Assembly (NCBI RefSeq): GCF_900106525.1
Contig: NZ_FNOG01000005.1
Location: 186,001 to 250,000 of the forward strand
DNA length: 64,000 bases
Origin: Lysobacter enzymogenes
Lineage (GTDB): Bacteria; Pseudomonadota; Gammaproteobacteria; Xanthomonadales; Xanthomonadaceae
Reading direction: 5' to 3'
This document shows, piece by piece, positions 16,604-64,000 of the stretch; positions within the stretch are counted from its first letter, which is position 1, and every line of letters begins with the position of its first letter. The notes under the pieces were generated by a model that was given only the letters and a program-made list of their open reading frames with translations, was not told where the DNA came from and made no database searches. The translations under genes and the position numbers were made by a program.

Positions 16604-19600
16604 AGAAATCCTGATTCGATGACGGGTTCGGCGCCGGCGCTCGACGCGGTTGAGGCGGCCTGCAAGGCGTCGATCAACAAGGCCTGGTCGCGGATCGTGG
16701 TGGCGGCGAACAGCCGGCGCAGGTCCAGGCGCAGATCGAACTCCAGCGCGATCGCGCCGGCCAATCGGGTGGCCAGCAGCGAGTGGCCGCCGAGAGCGAA
16801 GAAGTCCTCGGTGACGCCGATCTGCTCGCGCTGGAACAATCGCTGCCACAGCGCCAGCAAGCGGCGCTCGCTGTCGCTGGCCGGGGCCAGCCGCACCTGC
16901 GGACGCAGCACTTGTTCGACCAAGGCCGCCAACGCGCGCCGGTCGACCTTGCGGCTGGCGCTTTGCGGCAACGTCGCCATGCATTCGATATGCGCCGGCA
17001 GCAGATGCGCCGGCAGGCGCAGGCGCAGCGCGTCGCGCAGCGCCGCCGGTTCGGCCCCGCCCTGCACGAACGCCACCAGGCAGGCGTTGTCCTGCCCCGG
17101 CCGATGCACCAGCGCGACCGCCTCAGCCACGCCCGGTTGCGCGCGCAGCGCCGCTTCCACTTCGCCCAGCTCGATGCGCAGGCCGCGGATCTTGACCTGG
17201 TGATCGCGCCGACCGAGAAACTCCAGGCGGCCGTCGCGGCGCTGGCGCACGCGGTCGCCGGTGGCGTACAGGCGCACGCCGGCCAACACGCCGCGCTCGG
17301 GCGTGCGGAACGCCGCCGCGGTTTTCTCCGGCAAGCCCAGATAGCCATCGGCGAGGTAATCGCCGGCCAGATGCAATTCGCCGACCGACTCCGGCGGACA
17401 CGGTTGCCCCGACCAGTCCAGCACATAGCACTGCGCGTGCGGCAAGGGATGGCCGAGCGCGATCGCGCGACCGGGTTCGTGGCGGTCGGCGGTGACGATC
17501 ACCGAGGCCTCGGTCGGGCCGTAGCCGTTGAGCAGTACGCGCCCGCGTCCCCAGCGCTCGGCCAGTTCGCTCGGGCACACGTCGCCGCCGAGCAGCAGAT
17601 AACGCAGCGCCGGCAACGACGGCGGCGGCAGCGGCGCGAACACGGCCGGCTGCGCCACCACGTGGGTGATCGCTTGTTCGGCCAGCAGTGCCAGCAAGCC
17701 TTCGCCGGAACGGGTCAGCTCGCGCTCGATCAGGTGCAGACAGGCGCCCTGGGTCCAGGCGCACAGCCATTCCAGCACCGACATGTCGAAGTGCAGCCCG
17801 GTGAACTGCAGCACGCGGTCGCCGGGGCCGGCCGGCAGCATCGCGTGCACCGCCTGCATCAAGCGCAGCGGGCCGCGGTGCGGCACCAGCACGCCCTTGG
17901 GTTGGCCGGTGGAACCGGAGGTGTAGATCACGTACGCCGGCGAGGACGCGTCGTGGCTGCGCACCGGATTGCTCTCAGGTTGCGCGGCGAGTTCGGCCAG
18001 CAGCGTGTCGCTGTCGAGATCGAGCGCGCGGCTGGCGCTGCCGTCGACACAGGCCAACCCCGCCCCGCGCGCCAGCGCGAAGCGGCAGCCCGCATCGGCC
18101 AGGATGAAGGCGATGCGTTCGTGCGGATGCTCCGGATCGATCGGCACATAGGCGCCGCCGGCCTTGAGCACGGCCAGCATCGCCACGGTGATGGCGACGC
18201 TGCGGTCGGCCACCAGCGCCACCCGCTCGCCCGAGGCCAGGCCGAGCGCGCGCAGATGATGGGCCAGCCGGTTGGCGCGGCGATTGAGTTCGTCGTAGCT
18301 CAGGCAGCGGCCGCCGCCGACCAGGGCCGGCTCGGCCGGATGCCGCTGTGCGCTGCGCTCGATGCAGTCGGCCAGCGAATCGGGCATGCGTTCGGGCACG
18401 AACGGCAACGCCGGTCCCTGCCCGCGCGCGCGCCACGTCGCCCATTGCGCCGGCGCGAGCAGGCCGATCTGCCCGACCGGCGTGTCGCTCAGGCTGGCGA
18501 CATCGCGCAACAGGTGCAGCCAGTCGGCGAGCACGCGCTCGACGAAATCGTCCGGCAACTGGCTGCGCTGGCTTTGCAGCAGCAGGTGCAGGCCGTCCTC
18601 TTCCGGGGTGATCTGCACCAGCAACGGCAGATTGGTCGCACTGGCGGCGTGCACCAATTCGTAGGCCAGCCCGCCGGGCAATTGCGCGCTGGTATCGAGC
18701 GGAATGTTCTCGATCACCAGCAAGGTCTGCAGCAGCGCCGCGCCGTTGGGGAAACCGGCCAGCTCGGCGATCCGCGCCAGCGGCAGGCGATCGTGCGCCT
18801 GCACCGCGAAACTCAGGTCGCGCGCCTGGCGGCACAGCTCGCCGAATTCGAGCCCGGCCTGCAATCGCAGGCGCATCGGTACGGTGTTGATGAACAAGCC
18901 GGTCATGCGCTCGGCCTGCGCCAGCGCCGGCGGCCGGCCGCTGACGGTCAGGCCGAAGCAGACGTCGGCGCTGTTGCTGTAGCGGCTCAGCAACAGCGCC
19001 CAGGCCGCTTGCAGCACGCTGGTCAGCGGCACCTGCAGGCGCGCGGCGCAGGCGCGCAACGCGTCGATCTCGGCGCGCTGCAGCCGCGCTTCGGTGAGGT
19101 AGCGGCCCTCGCCCGGCGTTGCCGGCACCGGCAGCGCTTCGCCGCCTTCGTAGTCGGCCAACTGCGCGCGCCAGAAGGTTTCCTCGCCCTGCACCGGTTG
19201 TGCGCCGAGCCAGCCGATGTAGTCGCGGTAACGCGGCGCCGGCGCCAATTCGGCGCCGGCGTACAGCGCGAACAGCTCCTGCAGCAGCACGGCCGCGCTC
19301 CAGCGGTCGATCACCAGATGGTGCACGGTCAGCACCAGCCAGGCCTGCGCCGGCCCGGCGCAGACCAGGTGCAGGCGCAGCAACCCGGGCTGCTCCAGCG
19401 CGAACGCGCTGGCGCGCTCGCGCTCGCACAAGGCCCACAGTTCGGCCTGGACCTGAGCGCTGTCGCGGCCGGACCAATCGTGCTCGTGCAGGCGCGGCGC
19501 GGCCTGCACCGGCAGCCACTGCACCGGCCGGCCGGCGTGATCCCAGTCGAAGCCAACGCGCAGGCTTTCGTGGCGTTGTTGCAGACCCGACCAGGCCGCG

Positions 19601-22600
19601 ATCAGGCGCTCGCGATCCAGCGGGCCGGTCAGGCTCAGCACCTGCTGGTTGAGGTACTGGCCCGAATCCGGCGCGGCCAAGGCCGCGAACAGCAGGCCTT
19701 CCTGCAACGGCGACAAGGGATAGGCATCGACCGCATCGGCGTGCGCCGCGCGCAGGCGCGCGCCCTCGGCGGCGTCGAGCAGGCCGAACGGCGCCCCCAT
19801 CGTCGACGCCGTCGGGTCGGACGCTGCGGCCGGTTCGGCGGTCGCGTCCGTAGTGCGATCCAGGTGTGCAGCCAGCGCCGACAGCGGGCGGTGTTCCAGC
19901 AACTCGGCCGGCGTCAGCGTCAAACCGGCCTGACGCGCGCGCGCGACCAGCTTCAGCGCGGCGATCGAATCGCCGCCGAGCTCGAAGAAATCCGCGTCGC
20001 CCTCGATGCTGTCGCGATCCAGCGCCTGCGCGCAGACCCGGCGCAGCAGCGCCTCGGTCGGCGACAGCGGCCGCAGCCGCTGCGCCAGTTCGCGCAGGCT
20101 GGCGGTTTCCACCAGTAGCGTCGGGGTCAGTTCGATCCCGTGCTTGCGTGCGCTGGCCACCAGGCGCAGCGCCAGGATCGAATCGCCGCCGAGGGCGAAG
20201 AACGAAGCGTCCGGCCCCAATACCGCCTGCGGAAACAGCGGCTGCCACAGCGCCGCCAGCTGCGCCTCGAACGGCGTCAGCGGCGCGGCCTGCGCCGTCT
20301 CCGCGGGCGTTGCGGCCTCGAGCAACGCCAGCAGCGCGGCGCGGTCGATCTTGCCGTTCGCGGTCACCGGCACCGCTTCCACCTGCAGGCAGCGCGCCGG
20401 CACCATGTAGTCGGGCAAGGCCGCGCGCAACGACGTCAGCGGATCGGCGTGGGCGCCGCGATAGAACGCGGCCAGCGCTTGCGCCCCGTTCGCGCTTGTC
20501 GTCGCCAGAACCACCGCCTGCTCGATGCCGGGCAGCGCGCGCAAGCGTTGTTCGACTTCGCCGGGTTCGACCCGATAGCCGCGGATCTTGACCTGATCGT
20601 CGGCGCGGCCGAGGAACACCAGTTCGCCGCCCGCCAGCCGCTGTACGCGGTCGCCGGTGCGGTAGACGCGCCGCGCCGGGTCCAGCGGATCGGGCAGGAA
20701 GCGTTCCGCGCTCAGCGCCTCGCGGCGCCAGTAGCCGCGCGCCACGCCGATTCCGCCGACGTACAACTCGCCGATCGCGCCCTGCGCCACCGGGCGGCCC
20801 TGCGCGTCGAGCACATAAGCGCGGTAATTCGGCAACGGCGCGCCGATCGCGACCGACGCGGTGCCGCGCGGCGCGCGTGCGGCATCGATGCAGGTCGCGC
20901 CGACCGTGGTTTCGGTCGGGCCGTAGTGGTTGAACACCCGGCATTGCGGCGCCAGTTCGCGCACGTGCTCGACCAGCGACCACGGCAAGGCCTCGCCGCC
21001 GAATACCAGCGCCTGCTTCGGCAGCAAGCGCTGCGGCCGTTCGGCGGCGAGCAGAGCTTGCAGGTGCGAAGGCACGATCTTGAGCACGTCGACGCGGTGC
21101 TGCTGCAAATGCTCGGCCAGCGCGTGCGGATCGCGCGCCAGCGCATCGCCGATCAAGCGCAGCGCGCGTCCGCTCAGCAAGGCGCCGAACAAGGCGGTAT
21201 GGCCGAGGTCGGCCGAGGCCGTGGCCAAGGTCGAGAACACCGCGTCGGCGGCCAGCGGCTGGTCCGCCTGCAATCGCGCCAGCACGCCTTCGACGTAGCC
21301 GCACAGATTGGCGTGGCTGACCGCCACGCCCTTGGGCTGTCCGGTCGAACCGGAGGTGTAGATCAGATAGGCGACGGCGTCGGGGTCGCGCGCGATGTCG
21401 CTCAGGCTAGCGCCGGCCAGCGTTTCAGGCGCGCGCCACGTCACTGCTGCGGGCAGCCACGACGGACGCGGGCCTTCGCCCAGGACCACGCCCGCACCGC
21501 TGTCTTCGACCATGTAAGCCAGGCGCTCGTCGGGCAGGCGCGGGTCCAGCGCCAGCCAAGCCTGCCCCGCGTACCACGCCGCCAGCATGGCGGCGATTTG
21601 CGCCTCGCCGCGCGGCAACGCCAGGCCGACCACGTCGCCGCCTTGCGCCTCCAGTCCCGTGGCCCAGCTGCGAGCGCGGGCGCGCAGTGCGGCGTAGTCG
21701 AGCTTGCGCTCGCCTTCGTGCAAGGCGATGCGCGCGCCCGGCGCGGCCTCGATGCGCTCGATCGCGTGGCGCGCGCCCGGCTCGATGGTTTCGCCGTGTT
21801 CGCCGGCTTGCCCGTGCCCGGCCCAGTCCAGCGCGTCGAGCGCTTGCGCCGGGTCGGCGACGATCCGCGCCAGCAGTGCGACATAGCCGTCCAGCCAGCC
21901 CGACACGGTCTGCACGCTGTACAGCGCGTCGCTGTAGCCGATCTGGCAGCGCAGTTCATCGCCGTTCTCGAACACGGTCAGGATCAGTTCGTGGGCCGCG
22001 CCGCGCATGCCCATGTGCAGCGTTTCCAGCGCCACCGCCTCGCCCCAGCCCAAGCGCGCCTGCGAGTAGGTGAAGAAATGCTGGAACAGCGGCGCGCGGT
22101 CGGAACGCCGCGGCAGCGCCAGATCGTCCAGCAAACGGGTCAGCGGATAGCGCTGACGGCGCAGGGACGCATCCATCTGCGCCTTCAATGATGCGGCGAG
22201 ATCGGCGAAGCCCTGTTGCGGATCGATGCTCGCGCGCACCGGTACCGGGTTGGCCAGATATCCGACCAAATGCCGGTGCCGCGCCGCGTGGCGTCCGAGC
22301 GTCGGCGTGCCGATCACGAAATCGGTCTGCCCGCTCAAACGCCACAGCCATAGCTGATAGGCGCCGAGCAGCACGATGTACGGGGTGACGCCGAGCGCGG
22401 AGGCGGTCGCGCGCACTTGCGCGCTCAGGTCCGGATCGAGCGCGCGCTCGATCCGCTCGCCGCTCCATTGCCGCAGCGGCGGACGGGCGAAATCGGTCGG
22501 CAGGTCGAGGCTGGCCGGCGCGTCGCGCAGCAGCGTTTGCCAGTAGCGAGCCGCATCTTGGCCGCGCTCGCTGTCGAGGTAGTTGGCGTTCTCGCGGCTC

Positions 22601-23268
22601 CATTGCTCGTAGGACGCGGCCGGCGCGTCGACCGCCTCGCCGCCGAGTTCGGCGACCAGTTCACGGGCGAGGATCTCGCAGGAATAGAAGTCGGCGACGA
22701 TGTGGTGCAGCACCATCGACACCACCAGACGCTCGCCGACGCGCACGCTGGCCAGGCGCATGACCGCGCCGTCTTCCAGCGCGAACGCGCGGTCGGCCTG
22801 CGCCAGCAACAGGTCTTTAGCCTGCGCTAAATCGTTCGCGGTTGCGTGAGCCCGGCATTCGTTGCGATGTTTGGCGAGGATGCGATAGCACGGCTCGCCG
22901 TCGCGCTCGCCGAACTGCGCGCGCAGCATCGGATGGCGCGCGCACAAACGCTCGAACGCAGCGGCGAGCTGGGCGTCGCCGATCCGGCCGTCCATGCCGA
23001 GCACGGCGGTGCAATGGTAGGCCGCGCTGTGCGGCGCGAGACGGTGCAGGAACCACAGCGCGCGCGGATTGGCCTGCAGCGGACGCCAATCGAAATAATC
23101 CGGCTGCGCGGCGAGGATGGCGTCGATCTCGTCGCGGCGCTCGTGCAGCGCCTGGCGCTCGGCGGGAGCGATCGCAGCCTCATCGTGCGCCGGAACCCTC
23201 CAGCCTGCGGGGCCGCGCTCGAGCGTGCCGCCCTTGCGCCAATAACTTGCGAGAATCGAGGACGCCAT
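16600..23268 (-). CDS. Non-ribosomal peptide synthetase, first subunit, two modules with tandem carriers (Asp-X1)
   Basis: A 2222-residue NRPS that starts the assembly line visible here. The ATG at 23268 is chosen because AGGGAAG lies 5 bases upstream and the protein then begins at the TubC docking segment. Domains: TubC docking (2-55), condensation (HHIVADFYS near 187), adenylation 1 (YTSGSTGQPKG near 637), carrier 1 (LGGDSILAL near 1027), carrier 2 (LGGDSIAAL near 1098), condensation with a DCL-type start (YPLSPLQEGLLF near 1184; HHLVIDRWS near 1320, R for the usual G), adenylation 2 (near 1787) and carrier (GGHSL near 2160). The by-eye code of A1 is D-L-T-K-V-G-H-V-G-K, the Asp code apart from V for I. 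A2 reads D-M-L-V-L-G-G-V-I-K, which I cannot assign. There is no epimerase. The N-terminal C domain has no upstream module in the window; it could be a starter (acylating) domain or accept from another protein. Confidence 0.95.
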   Translation of the reverse strand: MASSILASYWRKGGTLERGPAGWRVPAHDEAAIAPAERQALHERRDEIDAILAAQPDYFDWRPLQANPRALWFLHRLAPHSAAYHCTAVLGMDGRIGDAQLAAAFERLCARHPMLRAQFGERDGEPCYRILAKHRNECRAHATANDLAQAKDLLLAQADRAFALEDGAVMRLASVRVGERLVVSMVLHHIVADFYSCEILARELVAELGGEAVDAPAASYEQWSRENANYLDSERGQDAARYWQTLLRDAPASLDLPTDFARPPLRQWSGERIERALDPDLSAQVRATASALGVTPYIVLLGAYQLWLWRLSGQTDFVIGTPTLGRHAARHRHLVGYLANPVPVRASIDPQQGFADLAASLKAQMDASLRRQRYPLTRLLDDLALPRRSDRAPLFQHFFTYSQARLGWGEAVALETLHMGMRGAAHELILTVFENGDELRCQIGYSDALYSVQTVSGWLDGYVALLARIVADPAQALDALDWAGHGQAGEHGETIEPGARHAIERIEAAPGARIALHEGERKLDYAALRARARSWATGLEAQGGDVVGLALPRGEAQIAAMLAAWYAGQAWLALDPRLPDERLAYMVEDSGAGVVLGEGPRPSWLPAAVTWRAPETLAGASLSDIARDPDAVAYLIYTSGSTGQPKGVAVSHANLCGYVEGVLARLQADQPLAADAVFSTLATASADLGHTALFGALLSGRALRLIGDALARDPHALAEHLQQHRVDVLKIVPSHLQALLAAERPQRLLPKQALVFGGEALPWSLVEHVRELAPQCRVFNHYGPTETTVGATCIDAARAPRGTASVAIGAPLPNYRAYVLDAQGRPVAQGAIGELYVGGIGVARGYWRREALSAERFLPDPLDPARRVYRTGDRVQRLAGGELVFLGRADDQVKIRGYRVEPGEVEQRLRALPGIEQAVVLATTSANGAQALAAFYRGAHADPLTSLRAALPDYMVPARCLQVEAVPVTANGKIDRAALLALLEAATPAETAQAAPLTPFEAQLAALWQPLFPQAVLGPDASFFALGGDSILALRLVASARKHGIELTPTLLVETASLRELAQRLRPLSPTEALLRRVCAQALDRDSIEGDADFFELGGDSIAALKLVARARQAGLTLTPAELLEHRPLSALAAHLDRTTDATAEPAAASDPTASTMGAPFGLLDAAEGARLRAAHADAVDAYPLSPLQEGLLFAALAAPDSGQYLNQQVLSLTGPLDRERLIAAWSGLQQRHESLRVGFDWDHAGRPVQWLPVQAAPRLHEHDWSGRDSAQVQAELWALCERERASAFALEQPGLLRLHLVCAGPAQAWLVLTVHHLVIDRWSAAVLLQELFALYAGAELAPAPRYRDYIGWLGAQPVQGEETFWRAQLADYEGGEALPVPATPGEGRYLTEARLQRAEIDALRACAARLQVPLTSVLQAAWALLLSRYSNSADVCFGLTVSGRPPALAQAERMTGLFINTVPMRLRLQAGLEFGELCRQARDLSFAVQAHDRLPLARIAELAGFPNGAALLQTLLVIENIPLDTSAQLPGGLAYELVHAASATNLPLLVQITPEEDGLHLLLQSQRSQLPDDFVERVLADWLHLLRDVASLSDTPVGQIGLLAPAQWATWRARGQGPALPFVPERMPDSLADCIERSAQRHPAEPALVGGGRCLSYDELNRRANRLAHHLRALGLASGERVALVADRSVAITVAMLAVLKAGGAYVPIDPEHPHERIAFILADAGCRFALARGAGLACVDGSASRALDLDSDTLLAELAAQPESNPVRSHDASSPAYVIYTSGSTGQPKGVLVPHRGPLRLMQAVHAMLPAGPGDRVLQFTGLHFDMSVLEWLCAWTQGACLHLIERELTRSGEGLLALLAEQAITHVVAQPAVFAPLPPPSLPALRYLLLGGDVCPSELAERWGRGRVLLNGYGPTEASVIVTADRHEPGRAIALGHPLPHAQCYVLDWSGQPCPPESVGELHLAGDYLADGYLGLPEKTAAAFRTPERGVLAGVRLYATGDRVRQRRDGRLEFLGRRDHQVKIRGLRIELGEVEAALRAQPGVAEAVALVHRPGQDNACLVAFVQGGAEPAALRDALRLRLPAHLLPAHIECMATLPQSASRKVDRRALAALVEQVLRPQVRLAPASDSERRLLALWQRLFQREQIGVTEDFFALGGHSLLATRLAGAIALEFDLRLDLRRLFAATTIRDQALLIDALQAASTASSAGAEPVIESGFL

Positions 23269-23337
23269 GGTGTCTTCCCTTGCATGCATCGCGGCCCGCG
23301 AACGCATCGCCGGGCCGGCCCAGAGCCTCGGCGGCGG

Positions 23338-47945: not shown

Positions 47946-48449
47946 CTACAGCGCCGCGATCGCGTCGGCGTCGACTTCCACGCTGACGCAACTGCCGAGC
48001 ATGTGCGCGTTGATGACCAGGTGCTCCTGGCTGCGCACCCGTACCAGTTCGCCGCACACGCCGGCGAACGGGCCGGCGATCACTTCCACGCGCTGGCCCG
48101 GCATCACCCGCGGCGCCACTTCCAAAGTCGCGCCGCTTTCGACCATGCGCTTGACCGCCTGCAGATCGCCTTCGGGCATGGTCGCCGGCTTGGTTCCCTG
48201 CAGCACCAGGCCGCAGGAACCGCGGATGTAGCGGATGTTCTCGTACTGCTCGGGACTGGGCTGGACGAACACATAGCCCGGAAACAGCGGCATCTCCACC
48301 ACCGCCTTCTTGTCCTGGCGACGCGTGACCACGCTGCGCCGGGGCAGATACGCCTTGATGCTCTTCTGCTGCAGGCTGTCTTCCACCACGTTCTCGTGAC
48401 GGCAGCGGGTGCGCAGCACCAGCCAGGGTTCGGAACTCGATTCGCTCAC
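47946..48449 (-). CDS. NusG paralogue, RfaH/TaA/LoaP-like antiterminator
   Basis: A 167-residue protein with an NGN domain (WLVLRTRCRHENVVEDSLQQ; MPLFPGYVFVQPSPEQYENI; IRYIRGSCGLVLQ) and a C-terminal KOW motif (PGQRVEVIAGPFAGVCGELV). The divergence from housekeeping NusG (short, no acidic loop) and the position beside a polyketide cluster match specialised NusG proteins such as TaA of the myxovirescin cluster and LoaP of Bacillus, which let RNA polymerase read through long biosynthetic operons. The start is GTG 48449 with GAGG upstream. It is transcribed separately from the PKS operon, the acyl-hydrolase gene lying between on the other strand. Its target operon is inferred. Confidence 0.88.
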   Translation of the reverse strand: MSESSSEPWLVLRTRCRHENVVEDSLQQKSIKAYLPRRSVVTRRQDKKAVVEMPLFPGYVFVQPSPEQYENIRYIRGSCGLVLQGTKPATMPEGDLQAVKRMVESGATLEVAPRVMPGQRVEVIAGPFAGVCGELVRVRSQEHLVINAHMLGSCVSVEVDADAIAAL

Positions 48450-49444
48450 TCAACGGCCTCTTGGTCTCGTAGGACAGGCTCGCGTTGCGCCCGCAACGCG
48501 TATTGCCAAACGAACGACTGCCCTTCGCGCAACAGGCGCGGCCACGCGCCGGCGCCGGCGCAGGCCGGAACCGTTGGCGTGAGGGGAGCGCAGAGGGCTC
48601 GAGACGGCCTTGCGGCCGCGCGCGTCCCTGCCGTCCCCGTGCCGGCATCGATGCGGAAGTTGTGGTTGCTGCTGGATGTTGCGATACGGACACATCCGAC
48701 GGTCCCAGCGCCGGTCGTGCCGAAGCCGATCCGTGCATCGACGAAACTACCGCGGCGGGCGATGCGAGTGGATTACCGCTTCGCCGCCGCCGTGCCCGTC
48801 GTGCCCGGTGGCATGTGCATACGGTGCCAGAATCGATTCGCAAGTAAACGAATCGTGGCGCGAATTGGGATGTGGAATCAGGAATTTAGTTTAGTTAATC
48901 GCGGCCGCGCGGAGCGATAAAGTTCCAATTTGACCGGAGTCACGACGCGGCGGTGATGTGTGGTGTGAATGCACCGAAATACCATGCTGAGCAGTACAAA
49001 AATTGCTCATTTCAGCTTATTTACAGGCACCTAATGCGCGCTAACCCAGGTCTGATGGGAATGTCATGACCGTTGGCCCAAAAATGCGTCCTGCACGCGT
49101 GTGAATACGCTTGTGCGGTCGATGGGCGACGGGCTCGGAAATCATCGGATACCCGCTCCCTGCTCGGCCGAGATTATCCGGCGCATTGCATCGACGACGT
49201 AGAACAGGCCGGAAAACGGCCATTAGCGACGCGCAGGGTCGCTTTTCACCGAAGTGAAAGCGCATCGAAACGGAATCGAAAAGAATGTAGCCGCGCGAAG
49301 GGCCGATATGGCGAAGATAATAGACAGCGCGATAAAGTATACCGGCGCGACTCGCACACGCCCGCTACCGATCACCGCGCGGCGGCCGCGCGGGCCGTTA
49401 AACTTGCGCTTCCAGGGCGCCTCCGGCGCCAGCCGAGACCGCCG
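48450..49444. other. Long gene-free divergent regulatory region
   Basis: About 1 kb without a convincing gene between the NusG-like gene and the plus-strand acyltransferase. The part at 48840-49060 is much less GC-rich than the rest of the window. A near-perfect hairpin, CGCTTTTCAC paired with GTGAAAGCG across CGAA, lies at 49240-49262. Open frames here have atypical composition and no ribosome binding sites. The region probably holds the promoters and leaders of both flanking genes. Confidence 0.55.
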
Positions 49445-50398
49445 ATGCCGCCCGCCAGCACCGTTTTCATGTTCTCCGGGCAAGGCTCGCAGTACTTCCA
49501 GATGGGCCGACGGCTGTACCAGGACGACGACGTCTTCCGCCGCTGGATGATTCATCTGGACGATTTCGCGCGCGAGTGGTGCGGCGAATCTGTCATCGAT
49601 GTCATCCATTCGCGCGGCAAGGCCGAGGCCTTCGACCGCACCGCCCACAGCCATCCCGCGATCTTCATGGTCGAGTACGCGCTGGCGCGTTGCCTGATCG
49701 AACGCGGCGTGCGCCCGGACTTGTGCCTGGGCGCGAGCCTGGGCTCGTTCGCCGCCGCGGCGGTGGCCGGGCACGTGTCGGTGGAGGATGCGATGCAGGC
49801 GGTGGTGGCCCAGGCAGAAGCCTTCGAAGGCCACTGCGAGCGCGGCGCGATGATCGCGATCCTGGCCGACCCGGCGCTGTACGCGCAGCCGTTCCTGAGC
49901 GAGCGCAGCGAACTGGCGGCGGTCAATTTCTCCAGCCATTTCGCCGTGGCCGCGCCGCAGGCCGCGCTGGCGCCGATCGAGGAGGAATTGCGCGCGCGCG
50001 CGATCAGCTTCCAGCGCCTGGCGGTCTCGTATGCGTTCCACTCGCGCTGGATCGAACCGGCGCAGGCGCCGTTCGCCGCGGCCACGTCTGTGCTGCCGCT
50101 GAGTCGCGGCGCGTTGCCGGTGGTGTGTTGCGAGCAGGCGGCGGTGCTGGACGAGCTGCCGCAGGATTTCTTCTGGCGCGTGGTGCGCCAGCCGATCCGC
50201 TTCGGCGAAGCGATCGCGCAGTTGGAGCGCAGCGGACCGCACCGCTATCTCGACCTCGGCCCGTCGGGCACGCTGGCGACCTTCGCCAAGTACCTGCTCC
50301 CGCAAGGCACGCGCTCCACTACGCAGGCGCTGATGACGCCTTACGGCCAGGACGAAAAACTGATGGCGGCGGTGCTGGCGCCGGCGCAGCCGGCCTGA
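49445..50398 (+). CDS. Trans-acting acyltransferase-like protein, probable acyl hydrolase (PedC/PksD type)
   Basis: A 317-residue FabD-fold protein starting at ATG 49445 (MPPASTVFMFSGQGSQYFQ); a much longer frame upstream is shadow. The nucleophile elbow is GASLG instead of the usual GHSLG, and the general base is in YAFHSRWI near 200. The Arg that holds the malonyl carboxylate (VxxR in malonyl transferases) is replaced: VVAQAEAFEGH has no Arg at that point. This pattern is known for the proofreading branch of trans-AT systems (PedC), which hydrolyses stalled acyl groups from carrier proteins. It points towards, and ends 32 bases from, the end of the PKS operon, and is divergent from the NusG-like gene. 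Confidence 0.85.
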   Translation: MPPASTVFMFSGQGSQYFQMGRRLYQDDDVFRRWMIHLDDFAREWCGESVIDVIHSRGKAEAFDRTAHSHPAIFMVEYALARCLIERGVRPDLCLGASLGSFAAAAVAGHVSVEDAMQAVVAQAEAFEGHCERGAMIAILADPALYAQPFLSERSELAAVNFSSHFAVAAPQAALAPIEEELRARAISFQRLAVSYAFHSRWIEPAQAPFAAATSVLPLSRGALPVVCCEQAAVLDELPQDFFWRVVRQPIRFGEAIAQLERSGPHRYLDLGPSGTLATFAKYLLPQGTRSTTQALMTPYGQDEKLMAAVLAPAQPA

Positions 50399-50430: not shown

Positions 50431-51276
<846 letters not shown>

Positions 51277-51278
51277 GC

Positions 51279-52040
51279 TCAGATCTCCTCGACGCACAGC
51301 AGGCGCCGCGCGGCGATGCCCGTTTCCTGCGGATAGCCGAAGGCGTTGTTGACGTAGCGCACGCCGTCGAGCACGACGTCGCGGTTGATGTGGCTGTGGC
51401 CGTACACGTGCAGGTCGGCGCCGAGCGCGCGCAGCCGGCGTTCGATCCCGGCGCTGCCGAGCACCGGGTCGAGGATGCGGTGGCGCGCGGGCACGTAGTT
51501 TGGGATCAGGTCCAGGCGCGGCAGGAAGTGCGAGACGGTGATGGTACGTGTGATGCCCTCGCGCGGCGGCAACGGATCCAGCGCAGCCAGGTGCGCGGCG
51601 ATCCGAGCGGCGTCGTAACCCGACGGCCAACGGCAGGCGCGGTAGTCCATCCACATTTGCTTGAGTTCTTCGCCGGGCTCGGCGAAGCCGTGGTCGTACC
51701 AGCCCAGCAGCGGCGCCACCAGGGTCGCGCCGTGGCGCCAGGCGCGGGTGGTGGCGCCGTGGTCGTGGGCCAGCCGGCGCACTTCGTCGAGCTTGTCCAG
51801 CGAGGTCTTGCCGGGATCTTCGCCGAGCACCCATAGGTCGTGGTTACCCGGCACGAACAGCACCCGGCCGAAACGCGCGGCCAGTTCGCCCAGACACGCG
51901 CCCAGCAACTGCGGGCGGTGGCTGATATCACCGGCAAGGATCAACGCGTCGTCGCGGTAATCCCAGCGCGACAGCGACTGCACCCACTGCGCGTTGTCCG
52001 GGTAGTCGACGTGCAGGTCGGAGACCGCGAACAAACGCAT
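51279..52040 (-). CDS. Calcineurin-like metallophosphoesterase, possible phosphopantetheinyl hydrolase
   Basis: A 253-residue protein with all metal-binding motifs of the superfamily in order: SDLHVDY near 7, AGDISHR near 37, VPGNHDLWVLG near 64, VSHFLPR near 165 and VYGHSHINRD near 211. There is no signal peptide, so it is cytoplasmic. A TTG one codon upstream is a possible start, but the ATG at 52040 is preferred. It is in the same operon as the malonyl transferase (85 bases upstream) and is separated from the phosphopantetheinyl transferase by 2 bases. In Mycobacterium tuberculosis a phosphoesterase of this fold (PptH) beside the transferase PptT removes phosphopantetheine from carrier proteins; the same role here is a hypothesis. 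Confidence 0.88.
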   Translation of the reverse strand: MRLFAVSDLHVDYPDNAQWVQSLSRWDYRDDALILAGDISHRPQLLGACLGELAARFGRVLFVPGNHDLWVLGEDPGKTSLDKLDEVRRLAHDHGATTRAWRHGATLVAPLLGWYDHGFAEPGEELKQMWMDYRACRWPSGYDAARIAAHLAALDPLPPREGITRTITVSHFLPRLDLIPNYVPARHRILDPVLGSAGIERRLRALGADLHVYGHSHINRDVVLDGVRYVNNAFGYPQETGIAARRLLCVEEI

Positions 52041-52125: not shown

Positions 52126-53259
52126 TCAAGCCGGCACCACCTCGTCCAGATCGAAGTAGCCGTTATAACCCTTCATATAGACCGCTGCGCGATGGCCGAA
52201 CAGCACCAGCGCCTCGCTGCGGGTCTCAAGGTCGGTGCGGTCGATCAGCAGCGAGCGCACCCGGGTGCCGACCGGGTGGGCGCGGTTCCAGGCCGCGACC
52301 TTGCCGGCGGCGTCGCCGCGGACCGCCTCGGCGGCCGCTGCGGCAGCGGGCTCGGCGGCGGGTGCCGCGCTCGCCTGCGCAGCCTCCGGCTCGGGCTTGC
52401 GGGTTTGCAGCTTGATCGTCTGCACCAGCCGGGTCAGCACGTCGCCGTGGCCGATCTCCTCGAACGTCATCTCCTCGCCGCGTTCGGCCGCGAGCCCGAG
52501 GAGGTACTGCACGCTCTCCGACCAGCGCACCGTGCTGGCGATCTGCGCCGACAAGGTCTGCGCCAGCTCGCCGGCCTCGTACTCGCGCGCGGTCACGTTG
52601 GAGATCACCGGGATCTTCGGCGCCGCCAGCTTGAAGGTCTTGAGGTATTTGGCGAACTTCTCCCGCGCCGGCAGCATGAACCTGGAATGGAACGCGCCGC
52701 TGGTGTTGAGCGGATAGAAGCGCATCTTGCCCTGGCGGAACAGCGGCTCGGCCTTGGCCAGTTGCTCGGCCGGGCCGGAGATCACGATCTGCGACGGCGT
52801 GTTGTAGTTGGCCAGACCGACATCGTCGAGCCCGTGCTCGGCCAGCAGCGCCTCGATCTGTTCCTTGCTGGCGTTGAGCACCGCCGCCATCGCCCCGCCG
52901 GACACCTGGCCCATCAGCGCGCCGCGCTTCTTGACCAGCTTCAGCCCGGTTTCGAAGTCGTAGCAGCCGGCGGCCATCAGCGCGTCGAACTCGCCCAGGC
53001 TGTGGCCGGCGAGGAAGTCCGGCGGCGCAGCGCCGTCGTCGATGCGGGCGAAATAGCTCAGCGCATTGACCACGTACAGCGCCGGCTGGGTGAACTGGGT
53101 GCGGCCGAGTTGGTCGTCGGGATCGTCCAGGCACAGCTGGCGGATCGAATAGCCGAGCACGGCGTCGGCCTGGCGCACCCGCTCGGGATAGCGCTCGAAC
53201 AGCTCGCCGCCCATGCCCTTGGCCTGCGAGCCCTGGCCCGGAAACACGAAAGTCTTCAT
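52126..53259 (-). CDS. Trans-acting malonyl-CoA:ACP acyltransferase with C-terminal extension
   Basis: A 377-residue FabD-fold enzyme that loads malonate onto the AT-less PKS modules. Motifs: FPGQGSQAKGMG, nucleophile in GHSLGEFDAL near 92, Arg present in LVKKRGALMGQV near 117 and base in AFHSRFM near 200, so unlike the plus-strand homologue it should be a genuine malonyl transferase. After the AT fold (about residue 285) come an Ala-rich linker and a compact terminal domain of about 60 residues (VGTRVRSLL, LFGHRAAVYMKGYNGYFDLD). It lies between the decarboxylating KS (49 bases) and the phosphoesterase in the operon. Confidence 0.93.
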   Translation of the reverse strand: MKTFVFPGQGSQAKGMGGELFERYPERVRQADAVLGYSIRQLCLDDPDDQLGRTQFTQPALYVVNALSYFARIDDGAAPPDFLAGHSLGEFDALMAAGCYDFETGLKLVKKRGALMGQVSGGAMAAVLNASKEQIEALLAEHGLDDVGLANYNTPSQIVISGPAEQLAKAEPLFRQGKMRFYPLNTSGAFHSRFMLPAREKFAKYLKTFKLAAPKIPVISNVTAREYEAGELAQTLSAQIASTVRWSESVQYLLGLAAERGEEMTFEEIGHGDVLTRLVQTIKLQTRKPEPEAAQASAAPAAEPAAAAAAEAVRGDAAGKVAAWNRAHPVGTRVRSLLIDRTDLETRSEALVLFGHRAAVYMKGYNGYFDLDEVVPA

Positions 53260-53308: not shown

Positions 53309-54571
53309 CTAGTGGCGGCTCAGGCATACGGCGGTGTTGACGCCGCCGAAGCCCATGCTCAGGTTCAATGCGTGCTCGATGCGGTGGTCGAGCGCGCGTT
53401 CGCGCACCCACGACAGCGAGGGTTCCATGCAGTCGTCGAGATTGCGGCTGGGGTGCAGTTGCTCGGCGCGCATCTGCAACGCCACCGCGGCCAGTTCGAC
53501 TGCGCCGGCGGCGCTGAGGCCGTGGCCGGTCACCGACTTGGTGGTGTTGAGCCAGGCATGGCCCAGGCCGCTGCGGCGCAACGCTTCGAGTTCGGTGACA
53601 TCGCCGATGCCCGAGCCGGTGCCGTGCGGGTTGACGTAGTCGATCTGCGCCGCGTCCAGGCCGGCGCGCTGCAGCGCCTTGGCTATCGCCGCCATCTCGC
53701 CGTCGAGCGAGGGATTGGGATTGCGGTTGCCGTCCATGCCCATCGCCCATCCGGCGATGCGCGCATACGGCCGCACCCCGGCGTGGCCGGCGCTGGCTTC
53801 GCGCTCGATCACCAGCACCGCGCAGGCTTCGCCGTAGATGAAACCGTCGCGCTCGCGGTCGAACGGGCGGCAGGCGTACTCCGGGCGTTTGGCGTAGCGG
53901 TCCGACCCCATCGCGCCGAGCGAGCGCAGGCCCTGGCATTCCCAGTGCGACAGATCCATCAGCGTGCCGACCGCGACGCAGGCGTCGACGATGCCGGCCT
54001 GGACCGCAGCGATCGCCTGCACCACCGCGACCTGGCCGCTGGCCGAGGCGCCGCCGACGGTGTGGGCGAAACCGCGGATGCCGAACACTTCGGTGCACAG
54101 CCCGCACAGGTCGCTGTCCATGAACGACATCGCATAGGTCGGGCGCAGGAACTGCGGGCGCTCGCGATAGGCCTCGTGCAACTGCACGAGTTCGCGTTGC
54201 TGGAAGTTGGAGCCGCCGACCACCAGCCCGACCCGATCCGGGTCGAGCCGGTCGAGCGCGGCGTCGTGCCAGGCCTCGTAGACGCTGGCCAGCGCGACTT
54301 GAGACGAGAACGACGCGGTGCGCAGCAGGCTCGGCGGAATCTCCACCGGCAACCCGAGCGTGCCGATCTCGGCGCCGAGATACGCGGTGCCCTCGCCGCG
54401 TTCGTCGGCCTGACGCTGGCGCCCGGGTCGGCGCATGACCCCGAAACGATGGCGGCCCGCAAGCAAGGCGTCGAGAAAATCGGCCTTGCCCTGCCCGATC
54501 GCCGAGGTCACGCCGATGCCGCTGATGAGCAGGTCCGAGCGCATCGGATCGGCGCGCTCAGGCTTTGCCAT
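53309..54571 (-). CDS. Decarboxylating ketosynthase of the beta-branching cassette (active-site Cys to Ser)
   Basis: A 420-residue FabF-like protein. The catalytic Cys is replaced by Ser in GGASASGQVAV near 170, while both His motifs are kept (NPHGTGSGIGD and KSVTGHGLSAAG). This is the hallmark of the PksF/TaK/CurC group, which decarboxylates malonyl on the donor ACP to give acetyl-ACP for the HMG-CoA synthase-like enzyme. Its start at 54571 overlaps the end of the ACP gene by 14 bases, so the enzyme and its carrier are coupled. It cannot be a chain-elongating KS. Confidence 0.94.
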   Translation of the reverse strand: MAKPERADPMRSDLLISGIGVTSAIGQGKADFLDALLAGRHRFGVMRRPGRQRQADERGEGTAYLGAEIGTLGLPVEIPPSLLRTASFSSQVALASVYEAWHDAALDRLDPDRVGLVVGGSNFQQRELVQLHEAYRERPQFLRPTYAMSFMDSDLCGLCTEVFGIRGFAHTVGGASASGQVAVVQAIAAVQAGIVDACVAVGTLMDLSHWECQGLRSLGAMGSDRYAKRPEYACRPFDRERDGFIYGEACAVLVIEREASAGHAGVRPYARIAGWAMGMDGNRNPNPSLDGEMAAIAKALQRAGLDAAQIDYVNPHGTGSGIGDVTELEALRRSGLGHAWLNTTKSVTGHGLSAAGAVELAAVALQMRAEQLHPSRNLDDCMEPSLSWVRERALDHRIEHALNLSMGFGGVNTAVCLSRH

Positions 54572-54912: not shown

Positions 54913-55695
54913 TCAGCGCCCGAACGCGGCGTCGATGCGCGCGCGCACTTCGGGCTGGTGGAAGGTCAACTCGTGCAGGGCGACTTCCTGCTCGATATAG
55001 CGCGGCAGGCGCTGGCGCAGATCCGCGACCAGATGGTCCTTGAGCGCGACCAGCGACACCCGCGGTTTTTCGGCCAGGTTGCGCGCCAGTTCCAGCGCAT
55101 GCGCCAGCACCTGTTCGCGCGGCAGCACCGGGAACGCGACGCCGCGGCGCTGCAATTCTTCGCCGCGGTAGGTCTGCGCGCCGAGCATCATCTCCGCGGC
55201 CAGCGCCGGGCCGAGCTTGTGCGGCAGGATCAGGGTCGAGCCCATGCCCGGGGTGAAGCCGTACTTCATGAAGTTGGCGGTGTACACGCTCTCGCGCGCC
55301 AGCACGACCAGATCGGCGAACAGGCCGAGCACGAAGCCGCCGCCGATGCCGTGGCCCTGCATCGCCGCGACCACCGGCACCGGGCAGTTCAAGGCCAGGC
55401 TGTAGAGGTCTTTGTCGGTGAACTTGAACCGGCCCTCGTACAGGTCGCGCAAGCCTTCCTGGGTGCCGCCGCTGGAAAAATAGGTGTCGTAGCCGGTCAG
55501 CACCACCGCCTTGCAATCCTGGCGTTGGCCGATGCGGGCGAAGACGTCGGTGAGGCCGGCGATCAGCGCGTCGCTGAAGGTGTTCTTGCTGGCGCGGTCC
55601 TGCATGCGCACCAGCAGCACGCCCTCGCCGGCTTCGCTGAGCGTTACCGGCGCGCCGTCGTCGATGCTTTCGGAGTTGGCGACAGTCGCGGACAT
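54913..55695 (-). CDS. Enoyl-CoA hydratase-like decarboxylase (ECH2) of the beta-branching cassette
   Basis: A 260-residue crotonase-fold protein. The oxyanion loops are FSSGGTQEGLRD near 73 and HGIGGGFVLGLFADLVV near 115, and MKYGFTPGMGSTLILP near 143 is typical of the decarboxylase class (PksI/TaY/CurF-ECH2). It removes CO2 from the glutaconyl intermediate to leave a methyl branch. The start at 55695 shares one base with the ECH1 stop (TGATG), showing translational coupling. Order of action: KS-Ser and ACP, HMG synthase, ECH1, then this enzyme. Confidence 0.92.
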   Translation of the reverse strand: MSATVANSESIDDGAPVTLSEAGEGVLLVRMQDRASKNTFSDALIAGLTDVFARIGQRQDCKAVVLTGYDTYFSSGGTQEGLRDLYEGRFKFTDKDLYSLALNCPVPVVAAMQGHGIGGGFVLGLFADLVVLARESVYTANFMKYGFTPGMGSTLILPHKLGPALAAEMMLGAQTYRGEELQRRGVAFPVLPREQVLAHALELARNLAEKPRVSLVALKDHLVADLRQRLPRYIEQEVALHELTFHQPEVRARIDAAFGR

Positions 55696-56468
55696 CAGTC
55701 GGCCTCCCACGGGAACTTGCCGCTGCGAACAAAGCGGACGATCTTGGCGACGTTGTCGGCATCGCCGAACACCTCGCGGTTGGCCGCCAGCGCCTTGGGC
55801 TTGGCTGCGGCGAGGCTGTCGTCGAGCTCGGCCGCATAACGCTTGTAGCGGGCCACGCCGTCCTTGCCGAGCCGGCGCAGGCGCAGCAGGTGCTTGCGCA
55901 GCAGATTGGCGCTGTCGGCCTCGCAGGCGTCGACCAGGCCCCAGTCCAGCGCCTGCCGCGCCGATACGGGCTGGGTGGTCAGGGTCAGGTAGTTGGCGCG
56001 GGCGATGCCGGTGCGGCGGATCAGGAACGGCAGCACGCAGGCCGGCATCAGGCCGAACAACAGCTCGGACAGGCTGAAACTGGCGGCGTCCTCGGCCAGC
56101 ACCAGATCGCAGGCGGCGACGAAGCCGATGCCGCCGGCGTTGGCGCGGCCGCGCACGTGGGCGACGCTGACGAAGGGGCCGCAGGCCAGGCGCCGCCACA
56201 GCTCGTACAGCGGCTCCGGGTCCTGGCCCTGGATGGTGCCGCGCTCGAAGCGCCCGCGGATCTCGTCGAAGTCGGCGCCGGAGCAGAACACCTCCGGCAG
56301 GCCTTCGAGCACCACCACCGTGGCCTGTGCTTCGCAAGCGCTCAGGGCGTCGCCGAGTTCGGCGATCAGGCGGTCGTCGATGGCGTTGTTGGCCTGCGGA
56401 CGATGCATCTGCACGAAGACGATGCCGTCCTCGGCGCGGACCTTGATCGACTCGTAATGGCGGCTCAT
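55695..56468 (-). CDS. Enoyl-CoA hydratase-like dehydratase (ECH1) of the beta-branching cassette
   Basis: A 257-residue crotonase-fold protein. GRANAGGIGFVAACDLVLAE near 105-125 and FSLSELLFGLMPACVLPFL near 130 are diagnostic of the PksH/TaX dehydratase class, which removes water from the HMG-like intermediate. FCSGADFDEIRG provides the first oxyanion loop. The ATG at 56468 forms a TGATG junction with the HMG-synthase stop; an ATG three codons upstream (56477) inside the previous gene is an alternative. It is co-transcribed with ECH2. Confidence 0.92.
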   Translation of the reverse strand: MSRHYESIKVRAEDGIVFVQMHRPQANNAIDDRLIAELGDALSACEAQATVVVLEGLPEVFCSGADFDEIRGRFERGTIQGQDPEPLYELWRRLACGPFVSVAHVRGRANAGGIGFVAACDLVLAEDAASFSLSELLFGLMPACVLPFLIRRTGIARANYLTLTTQPVSARQALDWGLVDACEADSANLLRKHLLRLRRLGKDGVARYKRYAAELDDSLAAAKPKALAANREVFGDADNVAKIVRFVRSGKFPWEAD

Positions 56469-57724
56469 CAGACCCATTCGTACTCCCGATGGAATTCCTT
56501 GATCTGCTTGAGGAACAAGGTCTTGTGGCCGAGCGCGGCGCGGGCCTGCGGCACGAACGCGGTGTCGGCGTCGAGGTTGCGGGTGCCGAACTTCATGCTG
56601 CGGCTCTTTTCCAGCAGCGCGTCGTACTGCTCCATGCTGAGCTGGTGACGACGATCCAGGCGCTCGCCGATCTTCATCGCGCGCAGCCGCTCCTGGCCTT
56701 CCTTGCGCACGGTGCCGCTGAAGAATTCCGAGCAGCAGCCCGAGCCGTAGGAAAACACGCCGATACGCTGCGGCGCGTCGAAGTCGCCGTTGTCGATGGT
56801 GCTGGCCAGCGACAGCGCGGCGGTGGCGCCCATGATGTTGCCCACGCGCTGGCAGTGGACCAGGCCCGGATTGACCCGGCGCTGGAAGTCGACTTCGATC
56901 TCGTTCGGCTTGGCCTTGGCCAGCTTGCGCATCATGTTGCGGTGCGCGCCCTTGACCATGCCGCCGAACGGGGTGTGATACGCGATATAGCCGAAGGTGT
57001 CGGCGAAGCTCGCGCCGGCGACGCGCTTTTCGTATTCCAGGTACGCGTTTTCGCAGCAGTTGAGGTAGGACAGCAGCGACAGGTCGGTGTCGCCGGCGTC
57101 GGTGTCGGCCGAGGGCCGGCAGGTGTCCATCACCTCGTAGCCGTAATAGCCGTTGGCGCCGACGTCGATCTGGAACACGTGCGGGCGGTCGCTGATCAGC
57201 ATCGCCACTGCGCCGGAGCCGCCGCTGGGCTCGGCGAACGACCAGTCCGCCGACAGCGCCTCGCCGCCCTCCTCGACCATGAAGCGCGACACGTCGGTGG
57301 CGATCACCAGCACCTTGGCCCCGGGCGAGACCTGCGAGAGCACGAAGTTGACCGCCATCTGCAGCCCGGCCACGCCCGAATAACAGGCGTTCTTGAGCTC
57401 GAACAGGCGGCAGTTGCGGTTGAGCCCGAGCAGGTCGTGGCAGTAGGTGCTCATCGACTTGCCGAAATCGAACGCCGACTCGGTGCAGGTGATGACCATC
57501 TCGATGCGGTCTTTCTCCTGCTCGCTGAGCGCGTCCACCAGCGGCTTGGCCGCGTTGACCGCGAAGGTGATCGGGTCTTCGTAGGGCAGCGCCACGCTCT
57601 TTTGCTTCATCAGCAGGTTCTCGAACCGGCTCATGTCCAGGCCGCGGTGGCGCGCCAGCTCGGTCACGTCCAGGCAGGCGGTGCCGGCGAATACGTTCAT
57701 CGCTTCGATTCCAACAGGGCTCAC
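56468..57724 (-). CDS. HMG-CoA synthase-like enzyme of the beta-branching cassette
   Basis: A 418-residue thiolase-fold enzyme that adds acetyl from the donor ACP to the beta-keto group of a PKS intermediate. Catalytic residues are visible: Glu in TCTESAFDFGKS, Cys in ELKNACYSGVAGLQ near 115 and His in YHTPFGGMVKGAH near 250. The N-terminus VSPVGIEAMNVFAGTA matches PksG/TaC starts, so I choose GTG 57724, with AGAGGT 7 bases upstream, rather than the internal ATG at 57700. It lies 73 bases after the hydrolase gene and is followed directly by ECH1. With its neighbours it forms the complete cassette. Confidence 0.94.
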   Translation of the reverse strand: MSPVGIEAMNVFAGTACLDVTELARHRGLDMSRFENLLMKQKSVALPYEDPITFAVNAAKPLVDALSEQEKDRIEMVITCTESAFDFGKSMSTYCHDLLGLNRNCRLFELKNACYSGVAGLQMAVNFVLSQVSPGAKVLVIATDVSRFMVEEGGEALSADWSFAEPSGGSGAVAMLISDRPHVFQIDVGANGYYGYEVMDTCRPSADTDAGDTDLSLLSYLNCCENAYLEYEKRVAGASFADTFGYIAYHTPFGGMVKGAHRNMMRKLAKAKPNEIEVDFQRRVNPGLVHCQRVGNIMGATAALSLASTIDNGDFDAPQRIGVFSYGSGCCSEFFSGTVRKEGQERLRAMKIGERLDRRHQLSMEQYDALLEKSRSMKFGTRNLDADTAFVPQARAALGHKTLFLKQIKEFHREYEWV

Positions 57725-57797: not shown

Positions 57798-58510
57798 TCA
57801 GCGGAAGGCGACCAACTTGCGCGGGTCTTGGCCGCGCCGCAGGCGATAGGCGGCGAAGCTGCTCTGGTCGGGAAATTGCAGGTACATGTTCCAGCGCAGC
57901 AGCTCGGCGAACGGCACGCCGGGCCCACGCAGATAGGTATGGCCCGGATGGATGCGCGTGTCCGGCGCCAGTTCGCGCTTGAGCCGTTCCAGGCTGTCGA
58001 ACATGGCGTGGGCGGCGGCTTCGTCGCGGCACAGGCCGCAGCCTTCGATGAACAGCACGTCGCCGGCGAACAGGTGCCCGCCGATGCGGTAGCACAGGCA
58101 GCCCGGGGTGTGACCCGGCGCCAGGATCGGCTCGATCCGCAGCGCGCCGAGCGTGCGCGGGGTCTCGTCGATGGCGAGCAGGCGCGGCAGGTCGAAGCCG
58201 CTGGTCTCGATCTCGCGCTGCGACATCCACACCGGGCAGTCGTGCGCGGCCGACAGTTCGCCGGCCAGATGCACGTGATCGAAATGGGCGTGGGTGATGG
58301 CGATCGCGCTCAAGGTCGCGCCGGCGCGCTGCAAGGCGGCTTCGAGCTTGTCGCGCTGCCAGGCCGGATCGACCAACAGCGCCTGGCGGGTGACCGGGTC
58401 CACGACCAGGTAGTTGTTGTTCTTCATCGCGCCGGCGGCGACTTCGATCAGGGTCACCTCCGGCGCGACCACGGCGTCGGCCTGCGCATGCGTCTGGGCG
58501 ACGGCTGCGC

Positions 58511-58514
<4 letters not shown>
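57798..58514 (-). CDS. Metallo-beta-lactamase-fold hydrolase, BaeB/PksB-like
   Basis: A 238-residue glyoxalase II-like protein. The metal motif THAHFDHVHLAGEL near 75, APGHTPGCLCYR near 133, FAGDVLFIEGCGL near 150 and HPGHTYLRG near 193 are intact. Members of this type (BaeB/PksB) are common in trans-AT PKS clusters such as bacillaene; their function is not settled, with thioester hydrolysis proposed. Start ATG 58514 overlaps the PKS stop as ATGA, so it is coupled to the megasynthase. It may release or edit thioester-bound chains. Confidence 0.9.

Positions 58515-64000
<5,486 letters not shown>

Follow-up and report, generated by a model that had tools for sequence, protein, structure and literature searches.

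Analysis of a 64,000-nucleotide window of Lysobacter enzymogenes DNA (contig NZ_FNOG01000005.1, positions 186,001 to 250,000; genome of 6.26 Mb) led to two adjacent genes at the end of a polyketide synthase (PKS) gene run, encoding a metallophosphoesterase (MPE) and an Sfp-type 4'-phosphopantetheinyl transferase (PPTase) (Table 1). The gene pair is real and conserved, and the MPE is probably a phosphopantetheine hydrolase, by analogy with PptH (Rv2795c) of Mycobacterium tuberculosis, which would reverse the reaction of the neighboring PPTase. Observed are the gene order, the fold match, the alignment of catalytic residues and the conservation of the pair; from fold, residues and pairing we infer the PptH reaction for the MPE, and its substrate and purpose are inferred as well.

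The gene pair and its relation to PptH

The phosphopantetheinyl hydrolase PptH, class "PTPH" in PMC8557913 (cited throughout from part of its text), is a Mn/Fe-dependent phosphodiesterase that is inactive on p-nitrophenyl phosphate (pNPP). Several foreign holo-carriers are among its substrates, an arm with biotin on the thiol is also removed, and Rv2795c adjoins the family II PPTase gene Rv2794c (PMC8557913). In the window, the MPE frame runs from an ATG at 52040 to a TGA at 51281-51279 with no internal stop. It matches Metallophos (E = 7e-13) and, beyond two Metallophos models, no other Pfam model at E 0.001. A sequence-only reading of this DNA had announced a complete calcineurin-like enzyme, which the frame and the Pfam match bear out. 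The PPTase frame starts with an ATG at 51276, ends at 50431 and matches ACPS (E = 8.7e-19) and AASDHPPT_N; the two bases said to separate the genes were recovered exactly.

Concerning its identity, the top relative of the MPE by profile, by fold (6UNC) and by reciprocal search is PptH, in agreement with the likeness claimed earlier. The fold match covers nearly the full length with about 25% identity, and Rv0805 and GpdQ are found among the next Foldseek matches. The presumed metal-site residues of the MPE (D8, H10, D38, N66, H67, H171, H215, H217), which we take to be the metal ligands of this superfamily, are invariant across a 51-row alignment and common to PptH. Specifically, H215 aligns with PptH H246 and H217 with H248 (PptH numbered by chain index less 3); lysates of an H246N strain were without activity and H248 is involved in metal coordination (PMC8557913). 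Additionally, F57, P110, P139, Y213 and P237 are present in at least 85% of the rows of the close group described below and of the PptH rows, and in at most 15% of 26 distant rows.

Trees were built by a quick method with midpoint rooting, with SH-aLRT as the only support measure and no bootstrap. In the first one, PptH was a lone row on an end branch of 4.72 and its placement was unsure. Once eight relatives from plasmid records had been added it was placed firmly among them, the branch between the subfamilies still being long. The close rows and nine PptH rows form separate groups and the MPE falls outside the actinobacterial PptH clade. It very probably represents a new PptH-type subfamily. 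Compared with PptH, it shares the near-full-length fold, the presumed metal site, the H246/H248 positions, P110, Y213 and P237 (largely absent from distant relatives) and a gene beside a family II (Sfp-type) PPTase. It differs in sequence identity, in its separate subfamily, in a distribution that is proteobacterial and wider, and in its position inside a trans-acyltransferase (trans-AT) PKS run, and its activity is a predicted one.

Other assignments were rejected. For symmetrical diadenosine tetraphosphate (Ap4A) hydrolases, no NCBIfam model matched at E 0.001 and PDB profiles gave E-values of 0.07-0.6; the fold list by itself would not exclude them, nor does it exclude families absent from it. 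Nucleotide hydrolases are outscored by PptH in profile, fold and reciprocal searches, and the MPE groups with neither, an outcome in favor of the sequence-only reading, which had named such a grouping as a refutation. TIGR03729 (acc_ester) reached 66.3 bits, against a curated cut-off of 148.25 bits.

Conservation of the pairing

Among 198 genomes of the family, ten carry the MPE, each in single copy. A homologous PPTase is adjacent in eight of them, co-directional or convergent, and PKS or acyltransferase (AT) genes lie within the stretch examined in all ten. This PPTase is found at 200 bits or more in 10/198 genomes, nine of which also have the MPE; the limit was set by us, and a genome at 169 bits (G132), without MPE, would be the eleventh. 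One genome has both genes far apart (G013), one the MPE without that PPTase (G089) and one that PPTase without the MPE (G101).

Beyond the family, a contig scan with our query yielded 78 loci from the best 80 of at least 204 relatives. Of the 61 rows of the close group, 50 are scanned loci (thus chosen by similarity to the query), six are additional loci from the family, four come from plasmids and the last is the window. L013, L016 and L017, family loci duplicating fetched contigs, were left out; three rows are on contigs shorter than 5 kb and the contig of L051 stops right behind the MPE. A PPTase lies at most 128 bases from the MPE in 39/61 rows, with ends estimated by a profile from 12 paired PPTases that divergent PPTases may escape. 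The order is MPE then PPTase in 30 pairs, convergent in six and PPTase then MPE in three, with eight changes of state on the tree. Hosts of the paired loci are Gammaproteobacteria, Burkholderiales, Alphaproteobacteria, Acidobacteriota and one KSB1 metagenome-assembled genome (MAG), representing three phyla. Distances between MPEs and between PPTases are correlated in the pairs (r = 0.79; 0/2000 permutations as high; shared ancestry not removed). With 8/10 family genomes and 39/61 close rows paired, conservation of the pairing is upheld. No PPTase was found in the stretches examined around 28 more distant rows.

In a random draw over the class, 4/369 genomes match profile A2 at E 1e-25. Besides the window genome, the three others are nearest to L069 and L070 and have no PPTase in their short flanks; the close group is accordingly rare in such a draw. 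L069 and L070, together with L130-L132, form a middle group just outside the close group, with no PPTase in the stretches examined. Six loci of Dyella and kin (L033, L034, L035, L042, L068, L072) have an MPE without neighboring PPTase; in L068 it has a gene for a PCu(A)C copper chaperone on one side and one for CtaG on the other. On a Vibrio nigripulchritudo plasmid (L117, 12001-12765), the MPE directly follows a PKS/non-ribosomal peptide synthetase (NRPS) run, with no adjoining PPTase in the annotation.

For the PptH group itself, eight of about 34 matched plasmid loci were fetched and four are paired by profile. Annotation confirms the pairs of Tsukamurella, S. clavuligerus and S. fungicidicus; the Nocardia pair rests on the profile, its record being unannotated there. 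According to the discussion of PMC8557913, PptH is apparently limited to mycobacteria and its physiological function is still to be determined. The first statement looks too narrow, given PptH-group genes well outside mycobacteria. One of these, on a Niveispirillum cyanobacteriorum plasmid (L118, 8001-8819; alphaproteobacterial), shows 50.6% identity with the stretch from M. tuberculosis and has no adjoining PPTase by profile.

PPTase and metallophosphoesterase genes have been tabulated in actinobacterial PKS clusters, in consecutive rows for abmK/abmL (PMC5819245) and I-NTF S/T (PMC8312574), and also as NypF and NypZ (PMC2942817). In the available parts of these papers no joint function is assigned, and their likeness to the window pair is that of the tabulated annotation. 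The sequence-only reading knew of no such pair from a gammaproteobacterial PKS cluster. We likewise found none in the literature searched; as a gene pairing, however, it has these actinobacterial precedents.

Proposed function and alternatives

In the proposed mechanism, the two-metal site of the MPE would activate a water molecule that cuts the phosphodiester between 4'-phosphopantetheine (Ppt) and the carrier-protein serine, turning holo- into apo-carrier. The PPTase next door would re-attach the Ppt arm, and co-translation may keep making and undoing in step. Sfp-type PPTases accept acyl-CoAs. Because of this, and because PptH tolerates a modified thiol (PMC8557913), we prefer as the most likely use in this PKS cluster a reset, in which idle, blocked or wrongly primed arms would be stripped and the carrier recharged by the PPTase; the data fit a simple regulatory off-switch just as well.

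Several observations weigh against a PptH-type activity coupled to the PPTase. The identity to PptH is low and the branch between the two subfamilies amounts to 3.5 changes per column. An adjacent PPTase is absent from 22/61 close rows, 16 of which are also without a PKS-type gene nearby. A genome-wide search in 18 of these 22 found a PPTase above 140 bits elsewhere in six, weaker matches only in seven and none at E 1e-6 in five. In the PptH group, two Streptomyces loci, Nonomuraea and Niveispirillum (4/8) are unpaired by profile. Nor is there a sign that the MPE replaces AcpH, an ACP hydrolase of the HD type known from E. coli and other bacteria, whose reaction is analogous to the one proposed here. 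MPE genomes are not depleted of AcpH, which is over the cut-off in 3/34 (a subset of 31 close-group and three middle-group genomes) vs 5/46 other gammaproteobacteria (Fisher p = 1.0; one of the five, G264, is a marginal split match, and G276 would be a sixth but scores below the cut-off). AcpH belongs to PF04336, which was not found in the genome carrying the window, whereas the MPE matches Metallophos.

The MPE could instead dispose of 3',5'-ADP (PAP), which the PPTase reaction releases, or of some other small molecule derived from CoA; the pairing would then serve to remove a product, not to undo the transfer. PAP is hydrolyzed at a phosphomonoester. An explanation by product removal would account for pairing in PKS and non-PKS settings alike, and the authors of PMC8557913 were unable to rule out small-molecule substrates; since the nearest characterized relative acts on carrier proteins and fails on the monoester pNPP (PMC8557913), we regard it as unlikely. 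Quite unlikely, in our judgment, is a phosphodiesterase of an unrelated substrate, such as a cyclic nucleotide or a glycerophosphodiester, found with PPTases by chance or through shared regulation; the Foldseek ranks of Rv0805 and GpdQ speak for it, as do Dyella, some Rhizobiales and Aureispira, which carry the MPE without a neighboring PPTase. A tailoring or self-protection phosphatase acting on the finished polyketide would suit the place of the MPE within a PKS gene run and the 23/61 close rows near PKS-type genes, but it is very improbable in view of 22 of the 39 paired loci, where PKS-type genes are missing from the stretch examined, and of the MAGs described next, where carrier proteins are few.

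Pairs outside polyketide clusters

PKS-type genes, called by comparison with the window proteins at E 1e-20, lie near 17/39 paired loci, and none was found in the stretch examined at the other 22 (one of them, L021, a 4.8-kb contig). In 16 gammaproteobacterial MAGs of unstated completeness, with titles such as SAR86 cluster, Pseudomonadales and Pseudohongiella (L043, L046, L048-L050, L052-L054, L056, L058-L061, L064-L066), a PF01648 search returned one PPTase per genome and no separate AcpS. After conversion of the ranges, its coordinates are in all 16 those of the gene paired with the MPE. These two results indicate that the module is not PKS-specific. In L056 a LysR gene precedes the pair, sharing four bases with the MPE, and the surrounding genes are rubrerythrin, DUF3501, CorC-like, SRP54 and RimM. 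A carrier search found an acyl carrier protein (ACP) of 82-85 aa in 14/16 MAGs. Eight have one carrier match, six have two and two have none, mostly short single ACPs; the second match in the six is weaker, in one case within a 2137-codon frame. Two Steroidobacteraceae covered by the same searches have 3 and 4 PPTases, with 23 and 34 matches to carriers.

It is possible, if somewhat doubtful, that PPTase and PptH-type hydrolase form a widespread portable module of reversible phosphopantetheinylation. In this uncultured gammaproteobacterial group it would be the sole such system, the balance of holo and apo forms of AcpP, the fatty-acid carrier itself, would depend on it, and polyketide clusters, including that of the window, would have recruited it. 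Why cells make Ppt-stripping enzymes is an open question (PMC8557913). A sister subfamily found with a PPTase in culturable proteobacteria, sometimes inside a biosynthetic cluster, offers an easier setting, where the effect of losing the hydrolase could be followed in the state of the carriers or the yield of product. Should the proposed reversal hold, the pair would also be a ready tool for carrier recycling in engineered polyketide pathways.

Surrounding genes

On the minus strand the order is PKS, metallo-beta-lactamase-fold hydrolase, HMG-CoA-synthase-like, two enoyl-CoA-hydratase-like, ketosynthase (KS)-like and FabD-like AT genes, MPE and PPTase. What precedes the pair in this run, the PKS included, we take to be a beta-branching trans-AT PKS set. 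A domain scan of the window part of the PKS open reading frame (ORF) found KS, ketoreductase (KR), ACP and dehydratase (DH) domains and no AT match, which fits a trans-AT PKS. Judged on that part, AT-less modules are accompanied by discrete AT genes, and the trans-AT setting named by the sequence-only reading stands. Past the window edge, same-strand giant ORFs extend for at least 38 kb. That the pair forms the last two genes of the operon holds for the same-strand run: the next gene is AT-like on the opposite strand, and a minus-strand NusG-like gene lies about 2 kb beyond.

Table 1. Features of the PKS gene run and the MPE-PPTase pair (window coordinates).
Feature	Position	Strand	Basis and remarks
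NusG-like antiterminator	47946..48449	-	UpxY model over its cut-off
Second discrete acyltransferase-like gene	49073..50398	+	Convergent with PPTase; start uncertain
Sfp-type PPTase	50431..51276	-	281 aa; Pfam
Two-base gap, MPE stop to PPTase start	51277..51278	-	Read directly
Putative PptH-like MPE	51279..52040	-	253 aa; Pfam, alignment, fold
Discrete FabD-type malonyl acyltransferase (trans-AT)	52126..53259	-	Profile matches
KS-like protein, PRK07103 type	53309..54571	-	Profile matches
Enoyl-CoA-hydratase-like (PRK07110)	54913..55695	-	Start estimated
Enoyl-CoA-hydratase-like (PRK07112)	55695..56477	-	Start estimated
HMG-CoA-synthase-like	56468..57700	-	Start estimated
Metallo-beta-lactamase-fold hydrolase, SolJ-like	57798..58514	-	Below curated cut-off; start estimated
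PKS modules, KS + KR + ACP + DH	58511..64000	-	Partly open ORF, continues past window

The NusG-like antiterminator stands beside the PKS run and has homologues at L011 and L022. Finally, large NRPS genes at 4253-23307 on the minus strand, separate from the trans-AT PKS run, encode condensation, adenylation and carrier domains.
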